From Pseudomonas sp. RIT-PI-S (lineage in GTDB: Bacteria > Pseudomonadota > Gammaproteobacteria > Pseudomonadales > Pseudomonadaceae): a DNA stretch of 64,000 bases. How positions within the stretch are numbered: the stretch's first letter is position 1; each line of letters opens with the position of its first letter. The stretch lies in NCBI RefSeq assembly GCF_025642975.1, contig NZ_JANZKJ010000007.1, positions 124,001 to 188,000 on the forward strand, read 5' to 3'. The position numbers were made by a program, and so were the translations under genes. Under the pieces are notes generated by a model. It saw only the letters and a list, made by a program, of their open reading frames with translations, searched no databases and had not been told where the DNA came from. Positions 5,425 through 63,271 of the stretch are shown in pieces.

Positions 5425-5840
5425 GCCATCGCTGCCAGCCCCGCTGCACCAGCCAGGAGCAGCGCGGCGGCTACCAGGTGCAGGCGGATGCCCCGTGCCA
5501 AGGTAGCCGCCACGCGGTCTTCGCCAGCGGCCCCGGCATTTTCCAGCTCAGCCAGCCTCAACAGGCTGACCCGCAGTAGCAGCGCTGCCGCTGCCAGGGT
5601 AGCCCCAAGCTGCCATTGCGCTAAGCGTGGCGCTGTTTCCAGCCCCGGGTAGCGGGCCTTGAATGTCATCACCAGGCACCCGGCCAAGGCTACGAAGCCC
5701 ACCCACGCCATGACGCAGCTGCGGCGGACGCGACCTGCCTGGGCGGCGTTAAGCCCCCCATACAGCAGTGCCAGGCAGCACGCCAGGGTGGCCGTGGCCA
5801 GGGGCAAGTCGCTTTGAAAAAGAAAACTTATAGGGTTCAT
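5421..5840 (-). CDS. Small inner-membrane protein of unknown function
   Basis: 139 aa from the ATG at 5840 with four hydrophobic segments (roughly residues 12-32, 42-62, 76-93 and 117-138) and little else; no signature residues. A longer frame to 5966 would cross the dinG promoter and start, so it is rejected. It is divergent from dinG with a possible SOS box between the two genes, so both could belong to the damage response. Function unknown; it looks like a conserved Pseudomonas hypothetical. Confidence 0.65.
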   Translation of the reverse strand: MNPISFLFQSDLPLATATLACCLALLYGGLNAAQAGRVRRSCVMAWVGFVALAGCLVMTFKARYPGLETAPRLAQWQLGATLAAAALLLRVSLLRLAELENAGAAGEDRVAATLARGIRLHLVAAALLLAGAAGLAAMA

Positions 5841-5899
5841 CGGAGTTTCGGTCGGCGCTTTTGAGAATAGGGGGTATGATAGCGACCTTCCCCGAACTA

Positions 5900-5915
5900 C
5901 TGATAATCCATCCAG
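5900..5915. promoter_or_regulatory. Candidate LexA (SOS) box upstream of dinG
   Basis: The bases form CTG-N10-CAG, the invariant frame of the gamma-proteobacterial LexA operator, 22 bp before the dinG start. The ten inner bases are only partly the alternating AT of the consensus, so it would be a weak box. dinG is SOS-controlled in Escherichia coli, which makes the position meaningful. Confidence 0.45.
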
Positions 5916-5937
5916 CCCTTTGGGCCGCTCGGACCAC

Positions 5938-8082
5938 ATGCTCAGCACTGAATTAAAATCCACCATCCAGGGCGCTTACAGCCGTTTTCTCGAGGCTAAG
6001 GGGCTCAAGGCCCGCTATGGCCAACGCCTGATGATCGCCGAGGTCGCCAAGGCACTAGGCGCCGTGCCCTGCGATGAAGAGGGCCGGCGCAGCGGCGAGC
6101 CTGCAGTGGTGGCGGTGGAGGCAGGTACTGGCACCGGCAAGACGGTAGCCTATAGCCTGGCGGCGATTCCGGCGGCCAAGGCCGCTGGCAAGCGGCTGGT
6201 GATAGCCACCGCGACTGTGGCACTGCAAGAGCAGATCGTTCACAAAGACCTGCCGGACATCATGCGCAACGCCGGCCTCAACTTCAGCTTCGCCCTGGCC
6301 AAGGGCCGAGGTCGCTACCTGTGCCTGTCCAAGCTCGATGCCTTGCTGCAGGAAGGCCAGGCGCAGACGGCGACTGCCCAGCTGTTCGAGGACGAGGGTT
6401 TTTCCATCGACGTGGACGAAGCGAGCCTCAAGCTGTTCACCAAGATGATCGAGAAGCTGGCCGGTAATCGCTGGGACGGCGACCGCGACAGTTGGCCGGA
6501 AGCGCTGGAAGACCCGGTCTGGGCGCGGCTGACCACCGATCACAGCCAGTGCACCAACCGCCATTGCCCTAATTTCCAGCAGTGTGCCTTCTATAAGGCA
6601 CGGGAGGGCATGGGCAAGGTCGATGTGATCGTCACCAACCACGACATGGTTCTGGCCGACCTCGCCCTGGGCGGCGGCGCCGTGCTGCCAGACCCGAAAG
6701 ATACCCTCTACGTCTTCGACGAAGGGCACCACCTGCCAGACAAGGCCATCGGCCACTTCGCTCATTTCACCCGGCTGCGTTCCACCGCCGACTGGCTCGA
6801 GCAAACGGCTCGCAACCTGACCAAGCTGCTAGCGCAGCATCCCTTGCCAGGAGACCTGGGCAAACTGATCGAGCAAGTCCCCGAACTGGCGCGGGAACTC
6901 AAGGCCCAGCTGCAATTCATGTATGGCGCTTGCGAGCAGCTGGCCGATTTTCGCCCAGGTGAAGACATGGAAGGCCGCGAGCGCCCGCGGCACCGCTTCG
7001 TCGGCGGCTTGGTGCCGGAGCACATCCGCGAGATGGGCATGGAACTGAAAAAAGGCTTTGCCCGCCTCACCGACCTTTACACGCGCTTGGCCGAATTGCT
7101 CAAGCAGGGTATGGAAGGTGAGGTGAATATCGGCATCGCCAGCCACCAGGCGGAAGAGTGGTACCCCCTGTTTGGCAGCCTGTTGGCCCGTGCCCAGGGC
7201 AGTTGGGAGTTGTGGGTGGCCTTTACCGCCGAGGATCCGGAGGGCAACCCGCCCATGGCTCGCTGGCTGACGCTGGTGGAAGCCGGGGCGGGGTATGACC
7301 TGGAAGTGAACGCCAGCCCCATCCTGGCGGCCGAGATGCTACGCCGTAATCTCTGGAACGTAGCCTTTGGCGCGCTTGTCACTTCCGCGACCCTGACCGC
7401 GCTGGGCCGCTTCGATCGCTTTCGCATGCGTGCCGGGCTGCCTCGCGACGCAGTGACCGCCGTGGTCCCCAGCCCCTTCCATCATGCCGATGCCGGCGTG
7501 TTGAGAGTGCCGGACCTGCGTGCCGACCCGCGGGATGCCGCTGCGCACACCGCGGCGATCATTCGAGAGCTGCCCGGGCTGGTCGAAGGCTCGCGCGGCT
7601 CGCTGGTGCTGTTCTCGTCGCGGCGCCAAATGCAGGACGTGTTCGACGGGCTGGACCGCGAATGGCGCCGGCAGGTGTTTATCCAAGGCAACCTCTCCAA
7701 ACAGGAGACCCTCAACAAGCACAAGGCGCGGGTCGATGAGGGCGACAGCAGTGTGCTGTTCGGCCTGGCCAGCTTTGCCGAGGGCGTCGACCTGCCTGGC
7801 GCCTATTGCGAGCACGTGGTTATCGCGAAAATTCCCTTCGCCGTGCCGGATGATCCAGTGGAGGCCGCACTGGCAGAGTGGATCGAAGCGCGTGGCGGGA
7901 ACCCGTTCATGGAAATCGCCGTGCCGGATGCGTCCCTGCGCCTGATTCAGGCCTGCGGCCGGCTGCTGCGCACCGAGCAAGACCGCGGCACCATCACCTT
8001 GCTGGACCGCCGCGTTGTCACCCAGCGCTACGGCAAGGCCATCCTCGACGCGCTTCCTCCGTTCCGCCGGGAGATCGGCTGA
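5938..8082 (+). CDS. dinG: ATP-dependent DNA helicase DinG
   Basis: An XPD-like superfamily 2 helicase (714 aa) that unwinds D-loops, R-loops and forked DNA 5'-3'. Walker A is AGTGTGKTVAYS (about residues 63-74) and the Walker B variant is FDEGHH (DEGH in place of DEAH). The four cysteines of the iron-sulfur cluster are visible in RYLC, QCTNRHC and QQC (about residues 125-220). Helicase motifs V-VI (FAEGVDLPG, QACGRLLRT) are near the C-terminus. I chose the ATG at 5938 (MLSTELK); six upstream residues in the open frame are not family-like. A possible SOS box lies just upstream. Confidence 0.95.
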   Translation: MLSTELKSTIQGAYSRFLEAKGLKARYGQRLMIAEVAKALGAVPCDEEGRRSGEPAVVAVEAGTGTGKTVAYSLAAIPAAKAAGKRLVIATATVALQEQIVHKDLPDIMRNAGLNFSFALAKGRGRYLCLSKLDALLQEGQAQTATAQLFEDEGFSIDVDEASLKLFTKMIEKLAGNRWDGDRDSWPEALEDPVWARLTTDHSQCTNRHCPNFQQCAFYKAREGMGKVDVIVTNHDMVLADLALGGGAVLPDPKDTLYVFDEGHHLPDKAIGHFAHFTRLRSTADWLEQTARNLTKLLAQHPLPGDLGKLIEQVPELARELKAQLQFMYGACEQLADFRPGEDMEGRERPRHRFVGGLVPEHIREMGMELKKGFARLTDLYTRLAELLKQGMEGEVNIGIASHQAEEWYPLFGSLLARAQGSWELWVAFTAEDPEGNPPMARWLTLVEAGAGYDLEVNASPILAAEMLRRNLWNVAFGALVTSATLTALGRFDRFRMRAGLPRDAVTAVVPSPFHHADAGVLRVPDLRADPRDAAAHTAAIIRELPGLVEGSRGSLVLFSSRRQMQDVFDGLDREWRRQVFIQGNLSKQETLNKHKARVDEGDSSVLFGLASFAEGVDLPGAYCEHVVIAKIPFAVPDDPVEAALAEWIEARGGNPFMEIAVPDASLRLIQACGRLLRTEQDRGTITLLDRRVVTQRYGKAILDALPPFRREIG

Positions 8083-11757: not shown

Positions 11758-12939
11758 TCAGGCCGCCCGCTTGCTGGCGGCTGCCATGATCAGGTACCCA
11801 CCGATCGCCGCCAGCGTAGACCCCGTTAGAATCCCCATGCGGTCCTGGCCGGCGTATACGCTGGTCGCTGGGTCGAATGCCAGCGAGCCAACGAAGATGC
11901 TCATGGTGAAGCCTATGCCGCAAAGCACCGCTACACCGAGCAGTTGCCCCCAGTTCGCCCCAGTCGGCAGGGCCGCCAGGCCGCTACGCACCGCCAGGAA
12001 CGTCAGCCCGAACACGCCGATGGTCTTCCCTGCCAGCAAGCCGGCGGTGATCCCCAGCGGCACCGAATGGGTAAAGCTTTCCAGGTTCATGCCGGCCAGT
12101 GAAATCCCTGCATTGGCAAACGCGAACAATGGCAGGATGGCGTAGGACACCCAGGGGTGAAGGGCATGTTCCAGGCGCAGCAAAGGCGCTTCATGCTCGG
12201 TTTCATCGCCGCCGCGCAACGGAATGAAGAACGCCAACGCCACCCCGGCCAGGGTCGCATGCACGCCGCTTTTCAGTACGCAGACCCAAAGCACCGCACC
12301 CACCAGTAGGTAAGGCGCCAGGCGGCGCACGCCAGCACGATTGAGCCCGAACAGTACCGCCATGCACCCAGCGGCCAGCATCAGTGCGGTGCTCGACAAG
12401 GCACCGGAATAGAACAGCGCGATGATCACGATGGCCCCCAGGTCATCGATGATCGCCAGCGTCATCAAAAACAGCTTGAGAGAGGCGGGTACGCGTTTGC
12501 CGAGCAGGGCCAATACACCCAACGCAAAGGCGATGTCCGTTGCGGTAGGTATCGCCCAACCGGCGGCGGCCGCGGGGTCCTGATGGTTCAATGTCCAGTA
12601 GATAAGCGCCGGAACCGCCATGCCGCCGAGAGCGGCGGCGCCGGGCAAAATTACCTGGGAGGGCTTGGCCAAATGGCCCTGGAGCATCTCGCGCTTGACC
12701 TCCAGGCCGATCAACAGGAAGAACAGCGCCATCAGCCCATCGTTGATCCACAGCAGCAGCGGCTTGGCCAGCTCCAGCGGCCCCAGGCGCAACCACACCG
12801 GGATATCCAGAAAGCCCATGTACCAAGAGGAAGCCGGCGAGTTATTGGCCAGCAGCGCGACTACCGCAGCGATTATCAGCAGTAGGCCACCGGTGGCCTC
12901 CATCGCGAAGAATTTCCGAAGCGAGAGACGTACGGACAA
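11758..12939 (-). CDS. nhaA: Na+/H+ antiporter NhaA
   Basis: NhaA exchanges internal Na+ for external H+ across the inner membrane. The 393-aa length, [38 protein letters not shown] (the TDIAF unwound helix), [17 protein letters not shown] with the Asp pair that carries the ions, and [15 protein letters not shown] near the C-terminus are all diagnostic. The start is a TTG at 12939 with an excellent AGGAGG ribosome-binding site six bases before it; the next ATG would remove 12 residues. It has its own transcript, divergent from the PLP enzyme. Confidence 0.95.
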
Positions 12940-53129: not shown

Positions 53130-53849
53130 TCATGCGGAACCTTCACCAACTTCCCGTACATGCAGCGCTCGGTCTAGCAGCTCGATTTCATAGCGGTGAC
53201 GGTCGTTGAGCATTTTCAGAAGCAGGCTACCTAGGGCAAACCCAACGAGTATCGCCAGCCCGAGTAGCGGCGCCAGGTTGAGGGGATGCTCTATCAACCT
53301 TTCGGCAAATGCACGGCGCACCGTTTCAAAGCCACTCAGCACTTGTACGGAGGAAAACCCCATTATTACCAAGGTAAGGACAGCTATCTTGTCTCCAGCT
53401 ATGAGAGTAACGCGCCGCTCATAGCGGGCGACTTTTTGGCTCAACAGCAAATGGGCGTGCTTGAGTTCCTCGGTGGAATATTTCAGCAACGTTTGTACGT
53501 AGGTTGCTTCTGTATCGAATTGCCCAAGCAGCTGCGCTAGGGTGTCGTCGCGCCAGTGACGCAGTTCGGACATGGCCGCGATGATTGGAAAACACAAAGC
53601 GATAAGTAGAAGTACCAGGCCGAGCAATCCGCTGACGGCCCCGGCTAGTTGTGCAGTGTCGCTAACTGGCTGCCCGGCCCGGGCCCAGCCGGCAACACAC
53701 AGAGCGGGGATGAACATCGTAATACTGGCCCAGAAACAGCGTCGTCCGAGCCGCTCAGTGAGGCCCAGGAAAGGCCGTTGCGCATGGACTGTATGAGCCC
53801 TGCAACTATTGAGGAAGATAAGTATTGTCCTGACGTGCGCTGGCAGCAT
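53130..53849 (-). CDS. Orphan membrane protein with coiled-coil, unknown function
   Basis: 239 aa. Four membrane segments fall at about residues 38-58, 67-92, 151-173 and 189-213. Between the second and third is a cytoplasmic or periplasmic helix (about 95-145, LRHWRDDTLAQLLGQFDTEA...VARYERR) that could form a coiled coil, and the tail after the fourth is basic/acidic. I recognise no family. The DNA is more AT-rich than the flanks and the codons are less biased, so it may be acquired. The AAGG sequence 8 bp upstream supports the ATG at 53849, although later starts remain possible. Confidence 0.5.
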   Translation of the reverse strand: MLPAHVRTILIFLNSCRAHTVHAQRPFLGLTERLGRRCFWASITMFIPALCVAGWARAGQPVSDTAQLAGAVSGLLGLVLLLIALCFPIIAAMSELRHWRDDTLAQLLGQFDTEATYVQTLLKYSTEELKHAHLLLSQKVARYERRVTLIAGDKIAVLTLVIMGFSSVQVLSGFETVRRAFAERLIEHPLNLAPLLGLAILVGFALGSLLLKMLNDRHRYEIELLDRALHVREVGEGSA

Positions 53850-54128: not shown

Positions 54129-56024
54129 ATGACAATCGGTTCTAGCTTTGATCATCCTGCTGATCTCACCTCTCCTGGCACCCGCGCCGCGCCATGGGCC
54201 GCGCGCTTCCCTAACCCCCCTGATCTCTGCTTCGATTACCGCAAACTAGTAGAGCTCAGCGGTGGTATAGCCGAGGCAAAAGAGCCCGAGCGTAGGATTG
54301 GTATTATTGGCGCGGGCGTGGCTGGGCTCTGCGCCGCACGCGAACTCCTACGCGCAGGCTTTAAAAACGTGACGTTGATCGAGCAGTCCAGCCGAATAGG
54401 CGGCCGACATCTTACGGTTGCCGGCCCAGATGGGGGTGCTCCTTTCGAAATGGGGGCCATGCGCATCCCTTTTTTTAACCGCACGGGTGAGCCGCCCCAG
54501 GCCGGGCGGTCATTGATGGCCTACTTTGCTGGCCTCTTCGACTTAAAACTCTCGAATTTTCCCAATCCGGGTACCTCCTGGGTAAATGCCACAGGTATCT
54601 ATTTACGGGAAGGTTGTCTGCTTGGTGACACGCCACAGCTGTTGATCTGGACAAACGCGACCGGAGAAGAGCCACCGCCTTCAGATACTCTACAAAGAGT
54701 TTTTACAAAGTGGCTGCGGTTTGCCAAGCGAATGAGTGCGGTAGTGTCCCTGCACTACGGAACCGCCCGGTGGCCGATGTTATGGGCGGCTATTGTGGAG
54801 CGGTATTCGCCGCTTTCTTTCAGAGATCTTGTGCACCTCGAGGAGGCGCTTCAGAACCACCCAGACCCTTCGGACTTTGGCGGCCTCGGCATGACTGAAG
54901 AAGAGTCTCGAATTTTCTACGCTATCGGCATTGGGGACGGCAGTTGGGGGGCATTCTATGATGTCTGCTGCCTGTACCCCTTGCGGACCGCGATATTTGG
55001 ATTCAGCAGTCATCTTCAACTCGTTCACGGGCGGGTTGACGCAAACGATGCACCATTGCCAGCTCCGTTCATTGGTGCAAGGCAAATAAAGGATTCAGCT
55101 GGGCACGATTTCGATGCCCCGGCTTATCTCGGAATCGCCGCCTTGGACGATTGCCTGATGCATTTGCCTATCGCCGAGCTACATCGATCGATGTACGAAA
55201 CGTTGGTAGCAAAGCCGGATGGCCTTTTGATGAGATCCAAGGTCACCCGGATCGAGCGACGCTCGGCTGGCGAACTCAGCGTCACTGTTAAGAATGATGA
55301 GGGTGTCAAGCGGCTGCTTTTTGATGAGCTCATTGTCACCATCCCTTCATGGATATTGGAAACATGCGTCGAGCTGATAGGTTTCGATAAAAAAACCCTA
55401 CCTTTTGAGATTATCGATGCTTGGAAACATGCTCATTGGGAAAGCAGTTGCAAGGTCTACGCTCCACTAGATAAAGCTTTTTTTGAAAAAGAAATTGCTA
55501 TCCCGCAAATTCTTGTGACCGACAGCTTCGTGCATGATGTTTATGCATATCGATACAGTGAGCGCTATAAAGCTGACTGTATTTTGCTAAGTTACACTTG
55601 GGAGGATGATGCAAACAAACTATGTGCCTTCACCGATAGCGAGTTAGCTCAAAGGTGCCTGGCAGAGCTTGACCGTATTTTGCTGCGCTGTACCAACGTT
55701 GGGCTGGCAATTTCTCCTTATGTCGATATATCCAAGGCTCGCGTGCAGCGCTGGTTAAATGATCCCAATGCTCACGGATGTGCCCGATTGTATCGGCCGG
55801 GTACCTATCAGGATGTAGTGCGATTGATGGCGTTCAACCGAGATCACTCAGGCAAGAGTCGTTTGTACCTTGCCGGCGAAGGGTACTCCGCAGATGCGGG
55901 GTGGACAGAGCCAGCCCTGCGTGGCGCTTTGGACGCCGTTATCAACCTATGCAACAACACAGGGGCGAGATTTCATGGCGGATTCTCGATGGGCGATTAC
56001 CCCGAGTATTACCAGCGGAAGTAG
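54129..56024 (+). CDS. Flavin amino-acid 2-monooxygenase/oxidase-like protein
   Basis: 631 aa, flavin monoamine oxidase superfamily. The FAD Rossmann motif RIGIIGAGVAGLCAARELL is at about residues 56-74, RIGGR near 90, GAMRIPFF (the substrate-side Arg segment) near 110, FPNP near 148 and the C-terminal FAD contact YLAGEGYSADAGWTEPALRGA near 590. The layout resembles tryptophan 2-monooxygenase and the lysine monooxygenase DavB, which turn an amino acid into its chain-shortened amide, rather than ordinary amine oxidases. Strikingly AT-rich compared with neighbours. A nitrilase-family amidase follows 127 bp later, fitting a monooxygenase-amidase pair. Substrate unknown. Confidence 0.7.
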   Translation: MTIGSSFDHPADLTSPGTRAAPWAARFPNPPDLCFDYRKLVELSGGIAEAKEPERRIGIIGAGVAGLCAARELLRAGFKNVTLIEQSSRIGGRHLTVAGPDGGAPFEMGAMRIPFFNRTGEPPQAGRSLMAYFAGLFDLKLSNFPNPGTSWVNATGIYLREGCLLGDTPQLLIWTNATGEEPPPSDTLQRVFTKWLRFAKRMSAVVSLHYGTARWPMLWAAIVERYSPLSFRDLVHLEEALQNHPDPSDFGGLGMTEEESRIFYAIGIGDGSWGAFYDVCCLYPLRTAIFGFSSHLQLVHGRVDANDAPLPAPFIGARQIKDSAGHDFDAPAYLGIAALDDCLMHLPIAELHRSMYETLVAKPDGLLMRSKVTRIERRSAGELSVTVKNDEGVKRLLFDELIVTIPSWILETCVELIGFDKKTLPFEIIDAWKHAHWESSCKVYAPLDKAFFEKEIAIPQILVTDSFVHDVYAYRYSERYKADCILLSYTWEDDANKLCAFTDSELAQRCLAELDRILLRCTNVGLAISPYVDISKARVQRWLNDPNAHGCARLYRPGTYQDVVRLMAFNRDHSGKSRLYLAGEGYSADAGWTEPALRGALDAVINLCNNTGARFHGGFSMGDYPEYYQRK

Positions 56025-56093
56025 CGTTAGCCCTAGGAAGCCAGCGCTCCGCTAGAAATTTCACACACGCACTTAGGAAACTGCCGGCTTTAA

Positions 56094-56138
56094 TATTCGA
56101 ATGGATGGTATTCATATGTAAAGACATCCATTCGAATA
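56094..56138. promoter_or_regulatory. 14 bp perfect inverted repeat upstream of the amidase gene
   Basis: The arms TATTCGAATGGATG (56094-56107) and its exact complement (56125-56138) enclose a 17-base loop that contains the palindrome CATATG. It is followed on the plus strand by AAAAAGG, which is the ribosome-binding site of the next gene, so it is not a plus-strand terminator; no clear T-run is present on the minus side either. It may be an operator, an RNA leader hairpin, or a recombination scar at the edge of the AT-rich gene. Confidence 0.6.
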
Positions 56139-56151
56139 AAAAGGCTTGCAA

Positions 56152-57051
56152 ATGATTCCTCCATCACCGCATTGCATCAGCCCCGTCCGCGTGGCCGTCG
56201 TTCAATTCGATCCTCAATGTGGAATCGACAACCTTCCCGCCAATGTCGCGCACGGCCTGGCCCTTGCCGAGCGGGCCGTTGCCGATGGAGCTCGGTTGAT
56301 CGTGCTTCCCGAGCTGTGTAATACCGGCTATGCCTACCGCGGCCGTACCGAGGCCTATGCCCTTGCCGAGGCAGTGCCCGATGGGGCGACTGTGCAGTTG
56401 TGGCAGGCTTTCGCACGCAAACACGGGGTGTACCTGGCCGCAGGGATCGCCGAGCGGGATGGCATGCGGTTGTATGACTGCGCGGTGTTGCTGGGGCCTG
56501 AAGGTTTTATCGGGAAGTATCGCAAGGCGCACCTTTGGAATTGCGAAAAGCTTTGGTTCTGCCCGGGTGACCTGGGGTTCCCTGTTTTCGAAACGCCCAT
56601 CGGCCGCATCGGGCTCATGATCTGCTGGGACCTGTGGTTTCCGGAAGTGCCTCGGCTATTGGCTTTGCAAGGCGCGGACATCATTTGCAGCCTGAACAAC
56701 TGGGTATGGACGCCCCCGCCGTTGTTCGACGACACCGGCAAATGTATGGCCTCGTACCTCACCATGACGGCGGCCCATGCCAACAACGTATTCATCGCTG
56801 CCGCCAACCGCGTTGGCAGCGATCGCGGCGACCGCTTCCTCGGCTGCTCGTTGATCGCGGGCACCAACGGCTGGCCGATCGGCAAGGTCGCGGGCGCGGA
56901 GGAGGAGACCATCCTCCAGGCCGATATCGACGTGGTTTGCGCCCGCAGCGCACCTATTTGGAACAGCCTCAACGACCTGCCAAGGGATCGCCGCGCTGAC
57001 CTTTATGACTCGATGCTGGGCTACCGGCTGCATCCGATGATGCCTCGATAG
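56152..57051 (+). CDS. Nitrilase-superfamily carbon-nitrogen hydrolase (amidase)
   Basis: 299 aa with a complete Glu-Lys-Cys triad: Glu in VLPELCNTGY (about residue 47), Lys in GKYRKAHLW (about residue 122) and Cys in LMICWDLWFPE (about residue 157). This is the aliphatic-amidase/carbamoylase branch, not true nitrilases; a cytoplasmic enzyme that would cleave an amide to acid plus ammonia. Placed after the monooxygenase-like gene it could hydrolyse that enzyme's amide product, as DavA does for DavB. The TAG stop overlaps the GGAG of the next gene. A TTG at 56146 is an alternative start. Confidence 0.85.
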   Translation: MIPPSPHCISPVRVAVVQFDPQCGIDNLPANVAHGLALAERAVADGARLIVLPELCNTGYAYRGRTEAYALAEAVPDGATVQLWQAFARKHGVYLAAGIAERDGMRLYDCAVLLGPEGFIGKYRKAHLWNCEKLWFCPGDLGFPVFETPIGRIGLMICWDLWFPEVPRLLALQGADIICSLNNWVWTPPPLFDDTGKCMASYLTMTAAHANNVFIAAANRVGSDRGDRFLGCSLIAGTNGWPIGKVAGAEEETILQADIDVVCARSAPIWNSLNDLPRDRRADLYDSMLGYRLHPMMPR

Positions 57052-57061
57052 GAGACCGCCG

Positions 57062-58237
57062 ATGATTCCTGTACGCATAAAGTCCGCGCCGCTGCTGCCT
57101 GCCGCGCTGTTGGTCACCTTGGCGCTCAGCGTGTTAAGCGCGGGGATACTGTCGAGTGAGGCGGGTACGGCGCTGGCATGGTCCGGTTATGCAGACATGA
57201 TGGCGCAGTTGAATGAACCTGCTGGCCGCTGGCGCTGGCTGATCGGGGACATGAGCGAGGTCGTCTTCTACAAACATGAATTCGCTTCGCTAGGGCTGGT
57301 GGGCGGCGGTTTGCTGGCTTGGTGGGCGGGCCGTGCCGGCAAACGTTGGCAAGGTTTTCCGATCGCTTATGGCAGCGGGCGCTGGCCATGGCTGGTGCTA
57401 GCGTCGACGCTGGGCCTAGTCCTGGGCAACCTGATCTGGGGTTGGACGTTGACCGCGGGACAATGGCAACCGACCTTCGTCGCCTTCGTATCGCTGCCAG
57501 CGGCCATGGTATTGCTGTACGGCCCTGGCTGGCGGATCGCCCTGAGCGGCGGGGTGATGGGGGCGCTGCTGGTCACCCCTGCCAGCCTGTTACTGGTGTC
57601 GGCGGTTTGCCTGCCGCTACAACTCCCGGCGGTGGTCGGCAACGTGCTAGGCATGGCCGCCGCAAGCCTGCTGGCTTTTTACCTGTGCCAGTGGGTTCCA
57701 GCACTGGTCCGCCCAGCGGCCCAGGCCACGCGCGGCGCTGCGATGGAGGCTCCGATCGCGCCGCGCTACGGCCTCGGCTGGGGGTTGCGACGGGTCCTGG
57801 CAGATTTTTCCGAAGCGCCTTTTTATGGCAACGAGTGGGCGAGCCTGGGTTTGATTGGCGGTGCGCTGCTGGCCCATGCACTTAACCCGGAAAGCCCGTT
57901 CTATGGGTCTGGCTGGCTTGCGCAGCTGCTGGTTGGGCAGGCCTTCGCGTCCGCGGTGGGCGTGTGGGTGTGGCACCGGCGTTGGGTCGAACGCGGCTGG
58001 TATCCCACCTACATACCCTTGGTGTCAGTGGTGCCCGCCAGCATCCTGGTGCATGGTCCGGCCCCTGCTGTGATTGCATTGAGCGGGTTACTCGGCGCGC
58101 TACTGACGCCGCCATTGGCAGTGGCGATCAGCGACCGCCTGCCTGCGCATTGCCACCCTTATATCGGCAACGTGCTGTCTATGGCCGCCGGTGTCCTGAT
58201 ACTGGTGCCTCTCGTAGGCTGGCTGGTGGCGCCATGA
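57062..58237 (+). CDS. Unrecognised membrane protein with two homologous halves
   Basis: 391 aa, about ten membrane segments. Residues 57-207 and 243-384 are copies of one unit. Matching blocks are SEVVFYKHEFASLGLVGGG versus SEAPFYGNEWASLGLIGGA, YGSG in both, WQPTFVAFVSLPA versus WYPTYIPLVSVVPA, ALSGGVMGALLVTP versus ALSGLLGALLTPP, and VGNVLGMAA versus IGNVLSMAA. The repeats contain Glu, Tyr and His inside hydrophobic segments, as transporters do. I know no family name for it. It is between an amidase and an asparaginase-like gene, overlapping the latter by 4 bp (ATGA), so it may move the amide or amino-acid substrate. The start ATG has GGAG 6 bp upstream. Confidence 0.8.
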   Translation: MIPVRIKSAPLLPAALLVTLALSVLSAGILSSEAGTALAWSGYADMMAQLNEPAGRWRWLIGDMSEVVFYKHEFASLGLVGGGLLAWWAGRAGKRWQGFPIAYGSGRWPWLVLASTLGLVLGNLIWGWTLTAGQWQPTFVAFVSLPAAMVLLYGPGWRIALSGGVMGALLVTPASLLLVSAVCLPLQLPAVVGNVLGMAAASLLAFYLCQWVPALVRPAAQATRGAAMEAPIAPRYGLGWGLRRVLADFSEAPFYGNEWASLGLIGGALLAHALNPESPFYGSGWLAQLLVGQAFASAVGVWVWHRRWVERGWYPTYIPLVSVVPASILVHGPAPAVIALSGLLGALLTPPLAVAISDRLPAHCHPYIGNVLSMAAGVLILVPLVGWLVAP

Positions 58238-59298
58238 CCGCTGTTGAACCTCAGCAGCCCCGCCTGGCGCTGGCCGCAATGGGCGGCACACTCAGCATGG
58301 CGGCCCGCCCCGGAGAGGCCGGGATAGTGCCGATGGTCGACGCTTGCGCCTGGGCTGAGCGGCTGCCCACGTTGACGCAGCTTGCTCCGGTCCAGTTGCA
58401 AACCCTGTGCTTGCTGCCGAGCGCTTCGTTGGGTTTCGATCAGGTAATGACCGCCCTGACCTGGGCTCAAGGGCAGGTGCGCGGCGGGGCAACCGGCGTG
58501 GTTATCACGCAAGGAACCGACACCCTTGAGGAAACGGCCTACTTGCTTAGCCTTCTTTGGGACCATGCCGTACCCCTGGTATTGACCGGGGCGATGCGTG
58601 GGGCCGACGATCCTTGCGCCGATGGCCCGGCTAACTTGATCGCCGCGGCGCAGGTAGCACTGGCTGCCAACAGCCGCGACCGTGGTGTGCTGGTAGTGAT
58701 GAACGCTCAGGTTCATGCCGCCAGTGCCGTACGCAAGGCACACACGCTGGCCCTGGACGCCTTCACCTCTCCCGAAGGCGGGCCATTAGGCTACCTGGAG
58801 CACGGCAAGGTCTGTTACCAATTTCCCGCCGCAGCGCTGCCTGCCGGGCTGCGCCTCCAGCGGTTGGGGCAGCGGGTTGCGCTGTTCGAGGCAAGCCTTG
58901 GCGAAGGGCCTGAATGGATAGAGCACGCATGCCGTAGCGGCTATGAGGGCATTGTCATAGCTGGCTTCGGTGCCGGCCATGTGGCGGCCTGCTGGGCGCC
59001 TTGGTTGGAACGGGCCGCTCGGCAGATGCCGGTGATCGTTGCCAGCCGCACCGGGGCTGGGAGCACGGCTTCCAATACCTATGGTTTTGCCGGAGGGGAA
59101 ATCGACTTGCGCCGGCGCGGCATTCATATGGCCGGGCACCTATGCCCGCGCAAATGCCGCCTGTTGCTGTGGGCGTTGATCGGCGCCGGGGCGCTGGAGC
59201 AATTGCCGCTGCGCCTGGTGGCTGGCCGTGGGCCCGGGCTGTCATCCGGGGCCACGGCGAACCCCGCTCACTCGTCTTCGTCATCCTGCGCGGGCTGA
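58234..59298 (+). CDS. L-asparaginase/glutaminase-family amidohydrolase
   Basis: 354 aa. The first catalytic block is AMGGTLSM (Thr of GGT) and the second is ITQGTDTLEET, which keeps the Thr-Asp pair; Lys of the triad is in VRKAHTLALDAF (about residue 168). The usual substrate-binding SQDM is SASLGF, and the Tyr of the flexible loop is not visible, so asparagine is not the certain substrate. No signal peptide, so cytoplasmic. The start is the ATG at 58234, overlapping the membrane gene; a longer open frame to 57964 is a shadow. Its 3' end overlaps the convergent regulator by 31 bp, which adds a Ser-rich tail (SSSSSCAG). Confidence 0.82.
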   Translation: MTAVEPQQPRLALAAMGGTLSMAARPGEAGIVPMVDACAWAERLPTLTQLAPVQLQTLCLLPSASLGFDQVMTALTWAQGQVRGGATGVVITQGTDTLEETAYLLSLLWDHAVPLVLTGAMRGADDPCADGPANLIAAAQVALAANSRDRGVLVVMNAQVHAASAVRKAHTLALDAFTSPEGGPLGYLEHGKVCYQFPAAALPAGLRLQRLGQRVALFEASLGEGPEWIEHACRSGYEGIVIAGFGAGHVAACWAPWLERAARQMPVIVASRTGAGSTASNTYGFAGGEIDLRRRGIHMAGHLCPRKCRLLLWALIGAGALEQLPLRLVAGRGPGLSSGATANPAHSSSSSCAG

Positions 59299-60164
59299 AT
59301 CTGGTCCATCTTCAGTTCCAGGCGGTAAGCCAGTGCCAGGAACAGCGCCTGGCACAGGCACAGGGTGGCGCTGAGCGAGCGGAACGCAAAGGCGCTGCCC
59401 TCGTTCACCAGCAACAGGCCGTGAGCACGCTTGGCCAGGGGCGAGAGGGTGCTGTCGGTGATGACCAGGGTCTTGGCCTTGTTGTGCTGGGCGATGCGCA
59501 CGCACTGCTGGCTCTCCTTGCCGTAGGGCGTGAAGCTGATGGCGATCAGCAAGTCATTGGCGCCGATGCTGCGCATCTGCTCGCGGTAGCCGCCGCCCAG
59601 GCCGCTGATCAGGTGGATGCGCTTGTTGGTGTGCTGCAGGTTGTAAACGAGGTAATCGGCCACCGCGAAGGAGCGGCGCACGCCCACCACATAGATGCTA
59701 TCGGCGTTCACCAGCAGGTCGACCGCGGTGTCGAACGCGCGGTCGTCCAACTCTTCGCCAAGCCGATCCAGGCCCGAGCGCGTGGCATTGATGCACTCGC
59801 GGGCAAGGTCGGCGCTGCTTGCACGCTGGGCCTTGTTGGCGATCATGCTGCGGATGCGTTGCTGGTAGTTCTGTACGGGTGTGGCCTTGTGCGTGTAGGC
59901 CTCGCGGAACAAAGCCTGCATTTCGCTGAAGCCCTTGAAGCCAAAGCGCTGGCAAAACCGCACGATTGCCGAGGGGTGCACTTCGCATTGTTCGGCGATA
60001 TCGCTGATGCGGTCGACCATCACCCGGTCGCTTTGCTGGTTGACGTAAGCAGCCACCCGCTTGAGCTGCCGCGGCAGGCTCTCGAAATCCCGAGTGATGA
60101 GCTGTAGCAACTCATCGACGCTGGCGGGCAGTGCGGGAGCGTCGATGGGCGGATCGGACGGCAT
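59268..60164 (-). CDS. RpiR/MurR-family regulator of inositol catabolism
   Basis: 298 aa. N-terminal HTH_6 domain about residues 15-95 (VMVDRISDIAEQCEVHPSAIVRFCQRFGFKGFSEM) and C-terminal SIS sugar-phosphate domain about 130-260 (IYVVGVRRSFAVADYLVYNL). Divergent from iolC, it is probably the local iol regulator; such proteins respond to an inositol-pathway sugar phosphate or intermediate. The ATG at 60164 is used; upstream frame to 60239 is low-complexity. The C-terminus is acidic (QDDEDE) and is encoded opposite the end of the asparaginase-like gene. Confidence 0.85.
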   Translation of the reverse strand: MPSDPPIDAPALPASVDELLQLITRDFESLPRQLKRVAAYVNQQSDRVMVDRISDIAEQCEVHPSAIVRFCQRFGFKGFSEMQALFREAYTHKATPVQNYQQRIRSMIANKAQRASSADLARECINATRSGLDRLGEELDDRAFDTAVDLLVNADSIYVVGVRRSFAVADYLVYNLQHTNKRIHLISGLGGGYREQMRSIGANDLLIAISFTPYGKESQQCVRIAQHNKAKTLVITDSTLSPLAKRAHGLLLVNEGSAFAFRSLSATLCLCQALFLALAYRLELKMDQIQPAQDDEDE

Positions 60165-60266
60165 GCGGACCTCTATCGGCAGGGCTCGGCGCCACACGTT
60201 AACCCATTCGGCGGGGACCGGGGAGACGGTCGGCGGCAACGCGGAGTGTACCCGTGGCTCGGTAAA

Positions 60267-60313
60267 AATAGAAACTAAATTCCATATAAAAAACTTTGGA
60301 AATTCTATTTGAA
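60267..60313. promoter_or_regulatory. Candidate operator between the RpiR regulator and iolC
   Basis: An AT-rich patch in an otherwise GC-rich gap contains TTCCA (60280-60284) and TGGAA (60297-60301) as an inverted pair with 12 bp between, each also followed outward by an AATAGAA-like tract. A -35-like TTGAAA starts at 60309, 17 bp before TAGCCT. The site is in the right place to control both divergent genes. Symmetry is imperfect. Confidence 0.4.
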
Positions 60314-60394
60314 AATTGCCTGGGGCCGATCTAGCCTTGGCTCATTCCTGAGCGGCCCGCGGTGCAGGGCCCAAAACAAAAACAAGGAGCCACC

Positions 60395-62332
60395 ATGGGT
60401 GACGTCGCTTTTGCCAGCGGGCGCCAGTTGGATGTGATCTGCCTGGGCCGCCTGGGTGTGGACCTCTATGCACAGCAGATCGGCGCCCGGCTCGAAGATG
60501 CCAGCAGCTTTGCCAAGTACCTCGGTGGCTCCTCGGCCAACATCGCCTTTGGCGCCGCCCGGCTGGGCTTGAGGTCCGCAATGCTGACCCGGGTAGGCGA
60601 CGACCACATGGGGCGGTTCTTGCTGGAAACCTTGCAGCGCGAAGGCTGCGACACCCGCGCGATAAAGGTCGACCGCGAGCGGCTCACGGCCATGGTGCTG
60701 CTGGGTATCAAGGACCGCGACACCTTCCCGCTGGTGTTCTACCGGGAGAACTGCGCCGACATGGCGTTGTGCGAAGCCGACGTGGACGAGGCCTTCATTG
60801 CCAGCAGCAAGGCGCTGTTGATCACCGGCACTCACTTCTCCACCGAGAGCGTGTACGCGGCCAGCAGCAAGGCGCTGGACTGCGCCGAGCGGCATAACGT
60901 GAAACGCGTGCTGGACATCGACTACCGCCCGGTGCTGTGGGGGCTGACCGGCAAGGCCGACGGCGAAACCCGGTTTATCGCCAACGCCCAGGTGAGCGCC
61001 CACGTGCAGCGGATTCTCCCGCGCTTCGACCTGATCGTAGGCACCGAGGAAGAATTCCTCATCGCCGGCGGCGGCGAGGACCTGCTCCAGGCGCTGCGCC
61101 GGGTGCGTGAACTGACGGCCGCGACGCTGGTGGTGAAGCTCGGCCCACGCGGCTGCTGCGTGCTGCACGACGAAATCCCCGATCGCCTCGAACAAGCAGG
61201 CCTGCACCAAGGGGTGCAAGTGCAGGTGCTCAACGTGCTGGGGGCGGGCGATGCCTTCATGGCCGGTTTTCTGCGCGGCTGGCTCACGGGTGGCGATGAC
61301 GAACATTGCTGCCGTCTGGGCAACGCTTGCGGCGCGCTGGTGGTGTCGCGCCACGGCTGCGCACCGGCAATGCCCACCCTGGCGGAGCTGGATTACCTGC
61401 TGCACAGCCCGGTGGCCATCACCCGGCCGGACCTGGACCCCACCCTGGAGCGCTTGCACCGGGTGAGCGTGCCGCGGCGGCGCTGGCGGCAGCTGTTTAT
61501 CTTCGCTTTCGACCACCGCTTCCAGCTGCTCGACGCCGCGCGCCAGGCGGGCGCGGACCCCGCGCGGATTCCGCTGCTCAAGCAGCTGTTCGTCAGGGCC
61601 ATCGAAGCGGTGGAAGCCGACCTCGCGGCCCGTGGCGTGGCGGCAGACGTAGGCCTGCTGGCGGATGAGCGCTTCGGCCTGGACGCGCTCAATGCCGCCA
61701 CCGGCAGGGGCTGGTGGATCGGCCGGCCGGTGGAGTTGCAGCAGTCTCGGCCGTTGGCCTTCGAACACGGCCGCTCGGTGGGCAGCCAACTGCTCGCCTG
61801 GCCACAGGAACAGATCGTCAAATGCCTGGTGCAATTTCACCCAGACGACGACCCGCTGCTGCGTCTGGAGCAAGAGGCGCAGGTCAAGGGGTTATATGAC
61901 GCCACCAAGGCCAGCGGCCATGAGCTGTTGCTGGAGGTGATCCCGCCCAAGAACCATCCCACGGCACGGCCGGACGCCTTATTGCGGGCTATCAAGCGGC
62001 TGTACAACATCGGCGTGTTCCCCGACTGGTGGAAGATCGAGGCCCAGCCCACGGAGGTGTGGGCGCGCCTGGACGCCTTGATCAACGAGCGCGACCCCTG
62101 GTGTCACGGGGTGGTGCTGCTGGGCTTGAACGCCGCCGGGGAAGCGCTGGCCGAGGGCTTCCGGCAGGCCGCGGCCAGCACCACGTGCCGTGGTTTTGCC
62201 GTGGGGCGGACGATTTTCGCGCAGCCGGCGCGGGCCTGGCTGGCTAACGAGATCAATGACCGCGAGCTGGTGGCGCAGGTGCGCGCTACCTTTGAATTCC
62301 TCATCGAGGCCTGGCGCCAAGCGCGTGCCTGA
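60395..62332 (+). CDS. iolC: IolC: 5-dehydro-2-deoxygluconokinase fused to an aldolase-like domain
   Basis: 645 aa, about twice the size of a simple kinase. Residues 1-330 form a PfkB-family kinase: KYLGGSSANIAFGAARLG near 50 and the ATP/catalytic NVLGAGDAFMAGF near 290. Residues 340-645 form the DUF2090 domain (FIFAFDHRFQLLDAARQ near 370), thought to be a 5-dehydro-2-deoxyphosphogluconate aldolase. The fusion would phosphorylate the inositol intermediate and cleave the product. AAGGAG precedes ATG 60395. First gene of the iol operon here; iolE follows after 42 bp. Confidence 0.92.
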   Translation: MGDVAFASGRQLDVICLGRLGVDLYAQQIGARLEDASSFAKYLGGSSANIAFGAARLGLRSAMLTRVGDDHMGRFLLETLQREGCDTRAIKVDRERLTAMVLLGIKDRDTFPLVFYRENCADMALCEADVDEAFIASSKALLITGTHFSTESVYAASSKALDCAERHNVKRVLDIDYRPVLWGLTGKADGETRFIANAQVSAHVQRILPRFDLIVGTEEEFLIAGGGEDLLQALRRVRELTAATLVVKLGPRGCCVLHDEIPDRLEQAGLHQGVQVQVLNVLGAGDAFMAGFLRGWLTGGDDEHCCRLGNACGALVVSRHGCAPAMPTLAELDYLLHSPVAITRPDLDPTLERLHRVSVPRRRWRQLFIFAFDHRFQLLDAARQAGADPARIPLLKQLFVRAIEAVEADLAARGVAADVGLLADERFGLDALNAATGRGWWIGRPVELQQSRPLAFEHGRSVGSQLLAWPQEQIVKCLVQFHPDDDPLLRLEQEAQVKGLYDATKASGHELLLEVIPPKNHPTARPDALLRAIKRLYNIGVFPDWWKIEAQPTEVWARLDALINERDPWCHGVVLLGLNAAGEALAEGFRQAAASTTCRGFAVGRTIFAQPARAWLANEINDRELVAQVRATFEFLIEAWRQARA

Positions 62333-62374
62333 CCCCACTGAGCAACGACCAGAACAAGAACAGGTGCAGCTGAC

Positions 62375-63271
62375 ATGAGCGAACACAGGTTGCGGATCGG
62401 CATCAACCCGATCTCCTGGGCCAACGATGATCTGCCCTCCCTGGGGGGCGACACGCCGCTGGGTACCATCCTGGAGGAGGGCCGGCAGATCGGCTTCGAA
62501 GGCTTTGAGCTCGGCGGCAAGTTCCCGACCGAGCCCAAGGCCTTGGGCGAGCTGCTCGGGCGCTATGGCTTGGCGCTGGTGTCAGGCTGGTATTCCAGCC
62601 AGCTGGCTCATCGGGAGCTGGCCGCGGAAATCGAAGCCATCGAGCCTCATGTGGAGCTGCTGGCGCAGAACGGCGCCAAAGTGCTGGTGTATGGCGAGGT
62701 CGCGGGCTCGATCCAGGGCAGGCGGGTGCCGCTGATCGAGCGGCCGCGCTTTCACAGCGATGCGCAATGGCAGGCGTATGCCGAGAAGCTCGATGGCCTG
62801 GCTGAGTTCACCGCCAGCCGCGGCCTGCGCCTGGCGTACCACCACCACATGGGTGCCTATGTCGAGGCTCCGGCAGACGTGGACCGGCTGATGGCGTTGA
62901 CCAGCCCGGCCGTGGGCCTGCTGTTCGATGCCGGCCATTGCTACATGGGTGGCGGCGACCCACTGACGGTGCTGCAAAAGCATATCGGCCGCGTGTGCCA
63001 TGTGCATTTCAAAGACGTGCGAGCGCCGGTGGTGGCCCTGGCCCGCAACAACCAATGGAGCTTTCCGGACTGCATCGTCAACGGCACCTTCACCGTGCCC
63101 GGAGACGGCGATATCGACTTCGCCGCGCTGCTCAAGGTGCTGGTCACCCATGGCTACGAGGGCTGGCTGGTGGTCGAGGCCGAGCAGGACCCGGCCGTGG
63201 CGCCGGCCTATGAATACGCAAGCCTGGGCTACCGCACCCTGCGCGATCTGCTCACCCAGGCCACTGCCTGA
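62375..63271 (+). CDS. iolE: Myo-inosose-2 dehydratase
   Basis: 298 aa, xylose-isomerase-like TIM barrel. IolE dehydrates 2-keto-myo-inositol (scyllo-inosose). Diagnostic blocks are IGINPISWANDDLPSLGG at the N-terminus, GFELGGKFP, AYHHHMGAYVE (metal-binding His), LLFDAGHCYMGGGDP and CHVHFKD, VPGDGDIDF. Good length. The order iolC-iolE-iolB is standard in Pseudomonas. The gene overlaps nothing and has iolB 21 bp later. Confidence 0.95.
   Translation: MSEHRLRIGINPISWANDDLPSLGGDTPLGTILEEGRQIGFEGFELGGKFPTEPKALGELLGRYGLALVSGWYSSQLAHRELAAEIEAIEPHVELLAQNGAKVLVYGEVAGSIQGRRVPLIERPRFHSDAQWQAYAEKLDGLAEFTASRGLRLAYHHHMGAYVEAPADVDRLMALTSPAVGLLFDAGHCYMGGGDPLTVLQKHIGRVCHVHFKDVRAPVVALARNNQWSFPDCIVNGTFTVPGDGDIDFAALLKVLVTHGYEGWLVVEAEQDPAVAPAYEYASLGYRTLRDLLTQATA

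Follow-up and report, generated by a model that had tools for sequence, protein, structure and literature searches.

A Pseudomonas gene cluster that probably links a urea-transporter-fold amide channel to a nitrilase-family amidase

Four plus-strand genes in a row, here named FMO, NIT, MEM and ASN, were analysed in a 64,000-nucleotide stretch of the genome of Pseudomonas sp. RIT-PI-S (4.89 Mb), referred to below as the window. The four genes are a unit retained at many chromosomal sites, in which NIT–MEM is the core, ASN is common, and FMO is optional and often decaying. As a whole, the cluster probably encodes a catabolic amide module consisting of a urea-transporter (UT)-fold channel, one or more amidases and, optionally, an amide-forming flavoenzyme. 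A preliminary description of the window had noted the same four genes, the last three being 10 base pairs (bp) apart or overlapping by 4 bp, and these coordinates were confirmed.

54129 to 56024, plus strand: FMO, a flavin adenine dinucleotide (FAD) enzyme, kin of amino-acid 2-monooxygenases and L-amino-acid oxidases, in a clade of its own
56152 to 57051, plus strand: NIT, a nitrilase-superfamily (CN_hydrolase) amidase with the triad Glu54–Lys125–Cys158
57062 to 58237, plus strand: MEM, a UT-fold membrane protein, predicted amide channel
58234 to 59298, plus strand: ASN, an asparaginase-family amidohydrolase with the catalytic Thr/Thr-Asp/Lys present and a lid loop without tyrosine

FMO and NIT are separated by 127 bp, NIT and MEM by 10 bp, and MEM and ASN overlap by 4 bp; the start of NIT was taken as the ATG at 56152, and an in-frame TTG is also present at 56146. 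Pfam assigned FMO to Amino_oxidase (PF01593; 5.6e-40), NIT to CN_hydrolase (5.6e-54) and ASN to Asparaginase (5.8e-48), and gave no match for MEM at E ≤ 0.1. In NCBIfam, no family was shown above its cutoff for FMO, NIT or ASN, and MEM had zero matches.

Conservation was assessed using 292 confirmed MEM relatives on genome contigs, of which the best 80 were returned (78 Pseudomonas and 2 Stenotrophomonas) and underlie all counts out of 80 below; because these are the most similar relatives, the sample is biased to close kin. Compared loci are given L numbers and compared genomes G numbers. NIT lay directly upstream of MEM in 80/80 loci, more than chance would give, and its reading frame was open over the full length in 78, the exceptions being L127, split over two frames, and L172, cut by a contig end. 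ASN was present in 54 loci (with an in-frame stop in L169) and not found in 26, the contig of L133 being too short to judge it. FMO was intact in 48 loci, always free of stops, broken in 10 and not found in 22; L172 was too short to judge FMO and L178 held only a partial copy. Since FMO was broken or not found in 32/80 loci and ASN was not found in 26/80, neither gene is needed for NIT–MEM. The complete order FMO–NIT–MEM–ASN with an intact FMO recurred in 36/80 loci, so that the arrangement first described in the window holds in other genomes as well. Moreover, protein clustering over 57 loci, 52 from genome stretches and five from plasmids, yielded 47 members each for NIT and MEM, 36 for FMO and 35 for ASN, far above the next cluster (15), and the unit therefore recurs in differing surroundings.

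In a genus sample of 149 genomes, MEM was detected in 50, once as a weak 33% partial match, and a near-full-length FMO of at least 55% identity in 35, two copies having one in-frame stop; all 35 FMO-bearing genomes also carried MEM when the two sets were compared by eye. FMO fragments were seen in G122, G102, G024, G076, G085, G057 and G067, and also in G081, at a contig end. In the class sample, MEM occurred only in the genome of the window (1/274). FMO, searched at 1e-60 in a 299-genome phylum sample, was found only in that genome and in one genome of the same genus, and none was found on plasmids at 1e-40. The closest named carriers of MEM are Pseudomonas quercus and P. japonica, and the cluster also occurs in readily cultured pseudomonads such as P. 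fluorescens FW300-N2E3 (L175). The split NIT copy mentioned above is that of P. japonica 66C3 (L127, 7049–7944), in which the other cluster genes are open. In L080, L090 and L112, a MEM copy stands upstream of FMO; this displaced copy is the only one shown by L080 and L090, and L112 has a second. Literature searches outside subscription journals and preprints showed no account of the cluster or of MEM among the titles and abstract openings listed.

The fold of MEM was assigned from a predicted structure. The AlphaFold2 model, built with 60 sequences, had a predicted local distance difference test score (pLDDT) of 83 and a predicted template modelling score of 0.83. VIA-align superposed this model on the 16 UT entries listed with Z of 21.6–23.1 and root-mean-square deviations of 3.3–4.7 over 286–303 aligned residues, followed by Rh/Amt proteins at Z 12.4. 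In addition, the top 8 PDB matches in Foldseek were all UT chains (probability 0.96–1.0), with a best E of only 0.017. By model comparison, MEM thus has a urea-transporter fold, with its helix 11–33 lying mostly N-terminal of the UT-aligned part. According to the available part of PMC10541013, the UT architecture consists of two pseudo-symmetric halves, with ten transmembrane helices in total, and of two pore helices. Matching motifs are present in MEM, one in each half.

57245 to 57298, plus strand: MEM first-repeat motif, residues 62–79, GDMSEVVFYKHEFASLGL, with Glu66; resembles a Gln-containing UT segment, as read by eye and not from a structural alignment
57800 to 57853, plus strand: MEM second-repeat motif, residues 247–264, ADFSEAPFYGNEWASLGL, with Glu251; likewise read by eye and not from a structural alignment

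The comparable segments of seven Pseudomonas UTs are GFSQ-like and GLGQ-like, with an invariant Gln. The membrane protein called unrecognised in the preliminary description still falls in no catalogued family, but its identity is now given by the urea-transporter fold; of the two roles offered there, uptake or export, this modelled fold makes uptake plausible.

MEM homologues adjoin amidases in alphaproteobacteria and actinobacteria too. A tblastn search of plasmids found MEM on six, and in 5/5 of the loci opened an amidase-type gene is its neighbour: the order is NIT–MEM–amidase–tautomerase in Phyllobacterium, asparaginase–NIT–MEM in Paenarthrobacter, and amidase–MEM in Rhodococcus (two plasmids) and Prescottella. 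In Variovorax, a relative of NIT (64%) is accompanied by the amidase and tautomerase annotations seen in Phyllobacterium, with a branched-chain-type ATP-binding-cassette (ABC) transporter upstream, and its record was absent from the plasmid tblastn matches for MEM. Because Variovorax has an ABC transporter where Phyllobacterium has MEM, MEM appears to fill a transporter's slot. NIT without MEM was seen in Embleya (unannotated) and on one Streptomyces plasmid. Amides are proposed as the permeant because of this amidase neighbourhood, a shared fold being no proof of permeant, and MEM is plausibly an amide channel that serves as the uptake part of the module.

The urea-channel fold of MEM would also suit a pathway for ureido or carbamoyl compounds or urea, in which urea is the permeant of MEM and NIT acts as an N-carbamoyl hydrolase. 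NIT indeed gave a sub-cutoff match to the N-carbamoylputrescine amidase model (152.7 of 410.25 bits), and a 51% NIT relative in Ancylobacter stands before a branched-chain-type ABC transporter and urease genes. However, no annotated urease was found in the stretches around the five MEM plasmid loci, for which the PLSDB gene tables are incomplete; a Pfam UT is already present in 80/99 Pseudomonas genomes searched; and NIT, its triad intact, shares 63% identity with its counterparts in Phyllobacterium and Paenarthrobacter, which are paired with amidase or asparaginase genes. We consider this pathway decidedly unlikely. The genome of the window (G000) has no Pfam UT (PF03253) at E ≤ 1e-10, unlike those 80/99 genomes of the genus.

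The earlier assignment of NIT as a nitrilase-superfamily amidase with an intact triad was upheld, since in addition to the CN_hydrolase match the Glu–Lys–Cys triad is invariant in 14/14 aligned relatives. NIT is also the most conserved member of the cluster, with 69–87% identity to the window copy among the compared rows from Pseudomonas and Stenotrophomonas. Among solved structures, its best relative is 3ivz, which is named a nitrilase; against the aliphatic amidase model, NIT scored 65 of 427 bits. ASN retains Thr19, Thr95–Asp96 and Lys168. In asparaginases, the Thr, Thr-Asp and Lys residues are catalytic and a lid-loop tyrosine has a role of its own. This tyrosine was absent from the loop after GGT in 13/13 aligned rows, as read by eye, and plain asparagine is therefore not assured as the substrate of ASN.

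An amino-acid-to-amide feed by FMO into this core is likely. The best PDB match of FMO is tryptophan 2-monooxygenase 4iv9 (2e-32), with amino-acid oxidases next. In a midpoint-rooted tree of 23 rows, the FMO family occupied a long, fully supported branch, on which the window's own row had a long end branch, apart from three groups (DavB, IaaM-like, and one near a gene that is presumably glyA); by sequence, FMO is neither DavB nor IaaM and belongs to its own clade. Residues of 31 intact members were compared against DavB, with the numbering of AAO/MOG. Arg102, Trp235, Tyr416, Trp418 and Trp516 were kept in 31/31, and Asp238, Cys254, Gln258 and Phe473 were replaced in 31/31 by Phe, Phe, Leu and Ala, respectively; these residues, kept and substituted alike, were invariant in a 36-row set as well, among them Phe276 of FMO (36/36), which stands at the Asp238 position. 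As far as the accessible portion of PMC5832979 goes, Arg102 and Tyr416 bind the carboxylate, Trp418 belongs to the pocket and Trp516 to the cage, Asp238 of AAO/MOG binds the basic side chain, and the D238F variant shifts activity towards Leu, Met and Phe. Because Phe replaces Asp238 in FMO, as in that variant, lysine or arginine is a less likely substrate than a neutral and perhaps hydrophobic amino acid. The structure model of FMO was poor (pLDDT 64), and the pocket claims are not based on it. A lysine/arginine route of the DavBA kind was rejected: this active site disfavours it, as does the presence of a davBA-like pair elsewhere in the genome.

Genes adjoining other FMO-like genes also favour an amide-forming flavoenzyme. 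At 7/8 of those examined, from three groups, an amidase-type gene was adjacent or one gene away: a CN_hydrolase at L119, L120 (copy at 12891), L122, L123 and L124, that of L124 being assigned solely from its similarity to NIT, and a member of the Pfam Amidase family at L121 and L125. The route put forward in the preliminary description, from amino acid through amide to ammonia, gains from these links, but the core proved to be NIT–MEM, with FMO broken or not found in the 32 loci above. Members of a different FMO-like group (L120, L122, L123 and L124) have Asp at the substrate position, except for Gly in one L120 copy, lie near the presumed glyA and are mostly paired with a CN_hydrolase; they perhaps belong to a basic amino-acid 2-monooxygenase pathway. 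L120 also carries a Transp_cyt_pur-type permease.

With tryptophan 2-monooxygenase as the best match, an auxin-type route was weighed, in which FMO converts tryptophan to indole-3-acetamide, NIT or ASN releases indole-3-acetic acid, and MEM is an exporter. Tryptophan 2-monooxygenase genes of plant-associated pseudomonads, which may or may not correspond to FMO, are assigned to such a route from genome annotation in the available parts of PMC3596284 and PMC8515041. However, FMO is only 25.6% identical to the IaaM-like protein of L121 and forms a separate clade; it has Phe276 and Trp273 in place of Val247 and Phe244 of TMO (PMC5832979, available part); NIT is not of the amidase family that adjoins IaaM-like genes; and the CA motif described below suggests catabolism. 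This route is very improbable.

A further competitor is that FMO is a plain L-amino-acid oxidase, which would release keto acid, ammonia and hydrogen peroxide and ride along an independent NIT–MEM–ASN amide-uptake operon. In its favour, NIT–MEM persists in the 32/80 loci where FMO is broken or not found, L-amino-acid oxidases are among the best PDB matches of FMO, and Cys254 and the cage residue Phe473 are replaced in FMO. Moreover, the guanine-plus-cytosine (GC) content of FMO was below that of NIT in 48/48 loci, a hint of separate origin; this lower GC, together with frequent decay, suggests that FMO was attached later or more loosely than the other genes. In contrast, the top PDB match is a tryptophan 2-monooxygenase, 35/35 near-full-length FMO copies of the genus sample lie in MEM-bearing genomes, and amidase linkage was seen at 7/8 other FMO-like genes. 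We judge a plain oxidase to be unlikely, and amide formation by FMO remains the preferred reading.

Several observations weigh against the amide module as proposed. Pfam UT (PF03253) was not reported at E ≤ 10 for 20 MEM members, five of which (5/20, the MEM of the window not among them) had a weak match to the threonine/serine exporter family ThrE (best E 0.0049); hhalign of MEM with 7 Pseudomonas UTs covered only 39 columns at 12% probability; and the pore-segment Gln of UTs reads Glu in MEM (Glu66 and Glu251), by motif comparison by eye only. Because sequence methods fail to confirm the kinship, a PDB profile search with MEM also giving nothing at E ≤ 1, MEM is named UT-fold and not a member of the UT family. 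With regard to FMO, monooxygenase activity was no longer detectable in the C254I variant of AAO/MOG (PMC5832979, in the part available), and FMO has Phe at this position (31/31); 7 other FMO-like proteins have Leu or Tyr there, including Tyr in the IaaM-like L121, so the position is not diagnostic of amide formation. The second cage aromatic, Phe473, is Ala in FMO and Phe in DavB and in 7/7 other FMO-like proteins. Furthermore, the L120 copy at 5807–7621 has no amidase beside it, P. quercus (L126), a near relative, is among the loci where FMO or ASN is broken or not found, and FMO and NIT, at a distance of 127 bp, may not be co-transcribed.

The region between FMO and NIT would control NIT–MEM–ASN.

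56025 to 56151, plus strand: FMO–NIT control region, with its counterpart retained in loci without FMO
56095 to 56137, plus strand: perfect 13-bp inverted repeat, ATTCGAATGGATG / CATCCATTCGAAT, immediately 5' of the ribosome-binding site
56135 to 56142, plus strand: AATAAAAA, which fits the Crc/Hfq CA motif AAnAAnAA (PMC3480352, available part), beside the ribosome-binding site

Leaders from 77/80 named loci and the window were compared, those of Stenotrophomonas L159 and L173 and the truncated L172 being dropped, and 55 remained after dereplication. A CA motif was present at 51/55 NIT starts, with the window included in this set, compared with 1/40 for FMO, 0/54 for MEM and 0/37 for ASN; the background was 110/660 starts of long open reading frames overall, with the NIT genes and spurious frames included. 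The same kind of A-rich site is described at amiE, where Hfq binds it with Crc, in the available parts of PMC6422490 and PMC3480352. With the patterns used, no sigma-54-like site was found upstream of NIT (0/55) or FMO (0/53). The preliminary description had proposed nitrogen scavenging, which these regulatory signals do not support; because of the CA motif at the NIT start and the lack of a sigma-54-like site, carbon catabolite control of NIT fits better.

A tandem repeat whose units are spaced by 22 bp is also present (identity 0.43 vs. 0.14–0.34 at other spacings; anchor in 44/55 leaders). In addition, the leaders contain a TTATAAA-like box, and upstream of the ribosome-binding site they are A-rich, as in AACAATAA. 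AraC-type regulators bind tandem half-sites. A gene for an AraC-type regulator with a DJ-1/PfpI domain lies co-directionally at most 1.5 kb upstream in 41/80 loci, and none was seen by eye in the window's flank. L216, in G017, has NIT and its leader without MEM, in a genome without a close FMO too; the control region thus appears to travel with NIT.

For the control region only, the leader could belong to a read-through mRNA and form a structured RNA switch by which the NIT ribosome-binding site is hidden, instead of, or in addition to, a promoter with activator sites. It folds into a hairpin in which the ribosome-binding site is paired in 45/55 leaders, although FMO leaders show such pairing at a similar frequency (37/46). 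Mean folding z was −2.69 for NIT leaders (n = 55), more negative than for FMO (−1.57, n = 46), MEM (−0.75, n = 48) and ASN (−1.94, n = 46), and the leader is retained before NIT in G017. On a wide alignment, which was fitted to the RNA model, 13/15 pairs vary on both sides (69 cells vs. 34.1 shuffled), and the covariation score was 0.208, compared with 0.121 after shuffling and no more than 0.061 after sliding; in contrast, a narrow alignment showed no excess covariation (2 pairs vs. 2.2 shuffled). RNAalifold predicted zero pairs on the first leader alignment, the RNA model R1, built from relatives, misses the window's own leader, and two Stenotrophomonas leaders are unlike all others. A search of 59 genomes with that model gave 13 with E ≤ 1. 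The strong matches that were checked lie upstream of NIT, including the one in G017, which lacks MEM; three others are weak and have no explanation. A known riboswitch was rejected, as Rfam gave no match for the window stretch and only three matches, far below gathering scores, for 13 loci. The tandem repeat and the TTATAAA-like box suggest a promoter, and we regard the switch as rather unlikely.

From conservation, family assignment, the fold of MEM, catalytic residues and the CA motif, all read from sequences or models, we infer the following scheme. MEM would pass small neutral amides across the inner membrane, and NIT would hydrolyse them in the cytoplasm to carboxylate and ammonia, trapping the product and driving the inflow. 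ASN, where present, might act as hydrolase on another amide or on the product of the first step. Where FMO is intact, a neutral, probably hydrophobic L-amino acid would be oxidatively decarboxylated to an amide that NIT opens, as DavB and DavA do for lysine. NIT–MEM–ASN would have a control region of their own, with repeats like a tandem activator site, a −10-like box and the Crc/Hfq motif at the NIT start. Hydrolysis of channel-imported amides can stand alone, because the core is NIT–MEM and FMO is so often broken or not found. The amide channel–amidase core is well supported by context and fold. Possible, but on balance doubtful, is a wider combined proposal. Under it, MEM would found a new family of UT-fold channels dedicated to amides and linked, in proteobacteria and actinobacteria, to amidases of the nitrilase family. 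In Pseudomonas, the amide would be supplied by a new amino-acid 2-monooxygenase that acts on a neutral amino acid and has a remodelled active site, in which one aromatic of the cage is lost, and the NIT operon would be controlled by a structured mRNA leader in which the ribosome-binding site is hidden and a Crc/Hfq site exposed.

The module would give a testable function, that of an amide channel on a urea-transporter scaffold, to a membrane-protein family unrecognised by Pfam and NCBIfam. Solved structures of the MEM fold among the matches listed are urea transporters, and an amidase-linked branch would show how selectivity might change from urea to amides. FMO, in turn, would mark a clade of amidase-linked flavoenzymes with a substrate pocket unlike those of the aligned relatives.

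Next to the cluster, a minus-strand gene at 53130–53849 encodes a 239-aa orphan protein without a Pfam family, whose sole relative among 130 loci searched is in P. japonica (L127), at 49% identity and in the same location. Immediately 3' of the cluster, 59268–63271 holds a convergent RpiR-type regulator gene and then inositol-catabolism-like genes, which we take to be iolC- and iolE-like; the RpiR gene and the iolE-like gene were not seen beside the cluster in the other loci compared.

Among known systems, DavB–DavA, which we take to be lysine 2-monooxygenase and 5-aminovaleramidase, also pairs a flavin amino-acid oxygenase relative with a CN_hydrolase amidase, and the genome of the window carries such a pair (presumably davB and davA) separately. 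FMO and NIT are only 24% and 37% identical to that pair, the Asp238 substrate residue of DavB is Phe in FMO, and the present cluster adds a channel and an asparaginase-like gene. IaaM–IaaH (tryptophan 2-monooxygenase and indoleacetamide hydrolase) shares the flavoenzyme superfamily and an amidase partner, whereas FMO forms a separate clade and its partner is of the nitrilase type and not of the Pfam Amidase family. SLC14 and bacterial urea transporters resemble MEM in fold by model comparison, in having two repeats and in a similar pore-segment pattern; MEM differs from them in lacking a Pfam UT match, in Glu for Gln in both motifs (by eye), in the extra helix 11–33 and in its amidase linkage. 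The P. aeruginosa amiE operon, whose channel is presumably AmiS, differs in that NIT is not AmiE-like (65 of 427 bits) and MEM has no match to the AmiS/UreI Pfam profile. It is similar to the present cluster in that the ribosome-binding site of an amidase gene carries an A-rich site for Crc/Hfq, as given in the available parts of PMC6422490 and PMC3480352.

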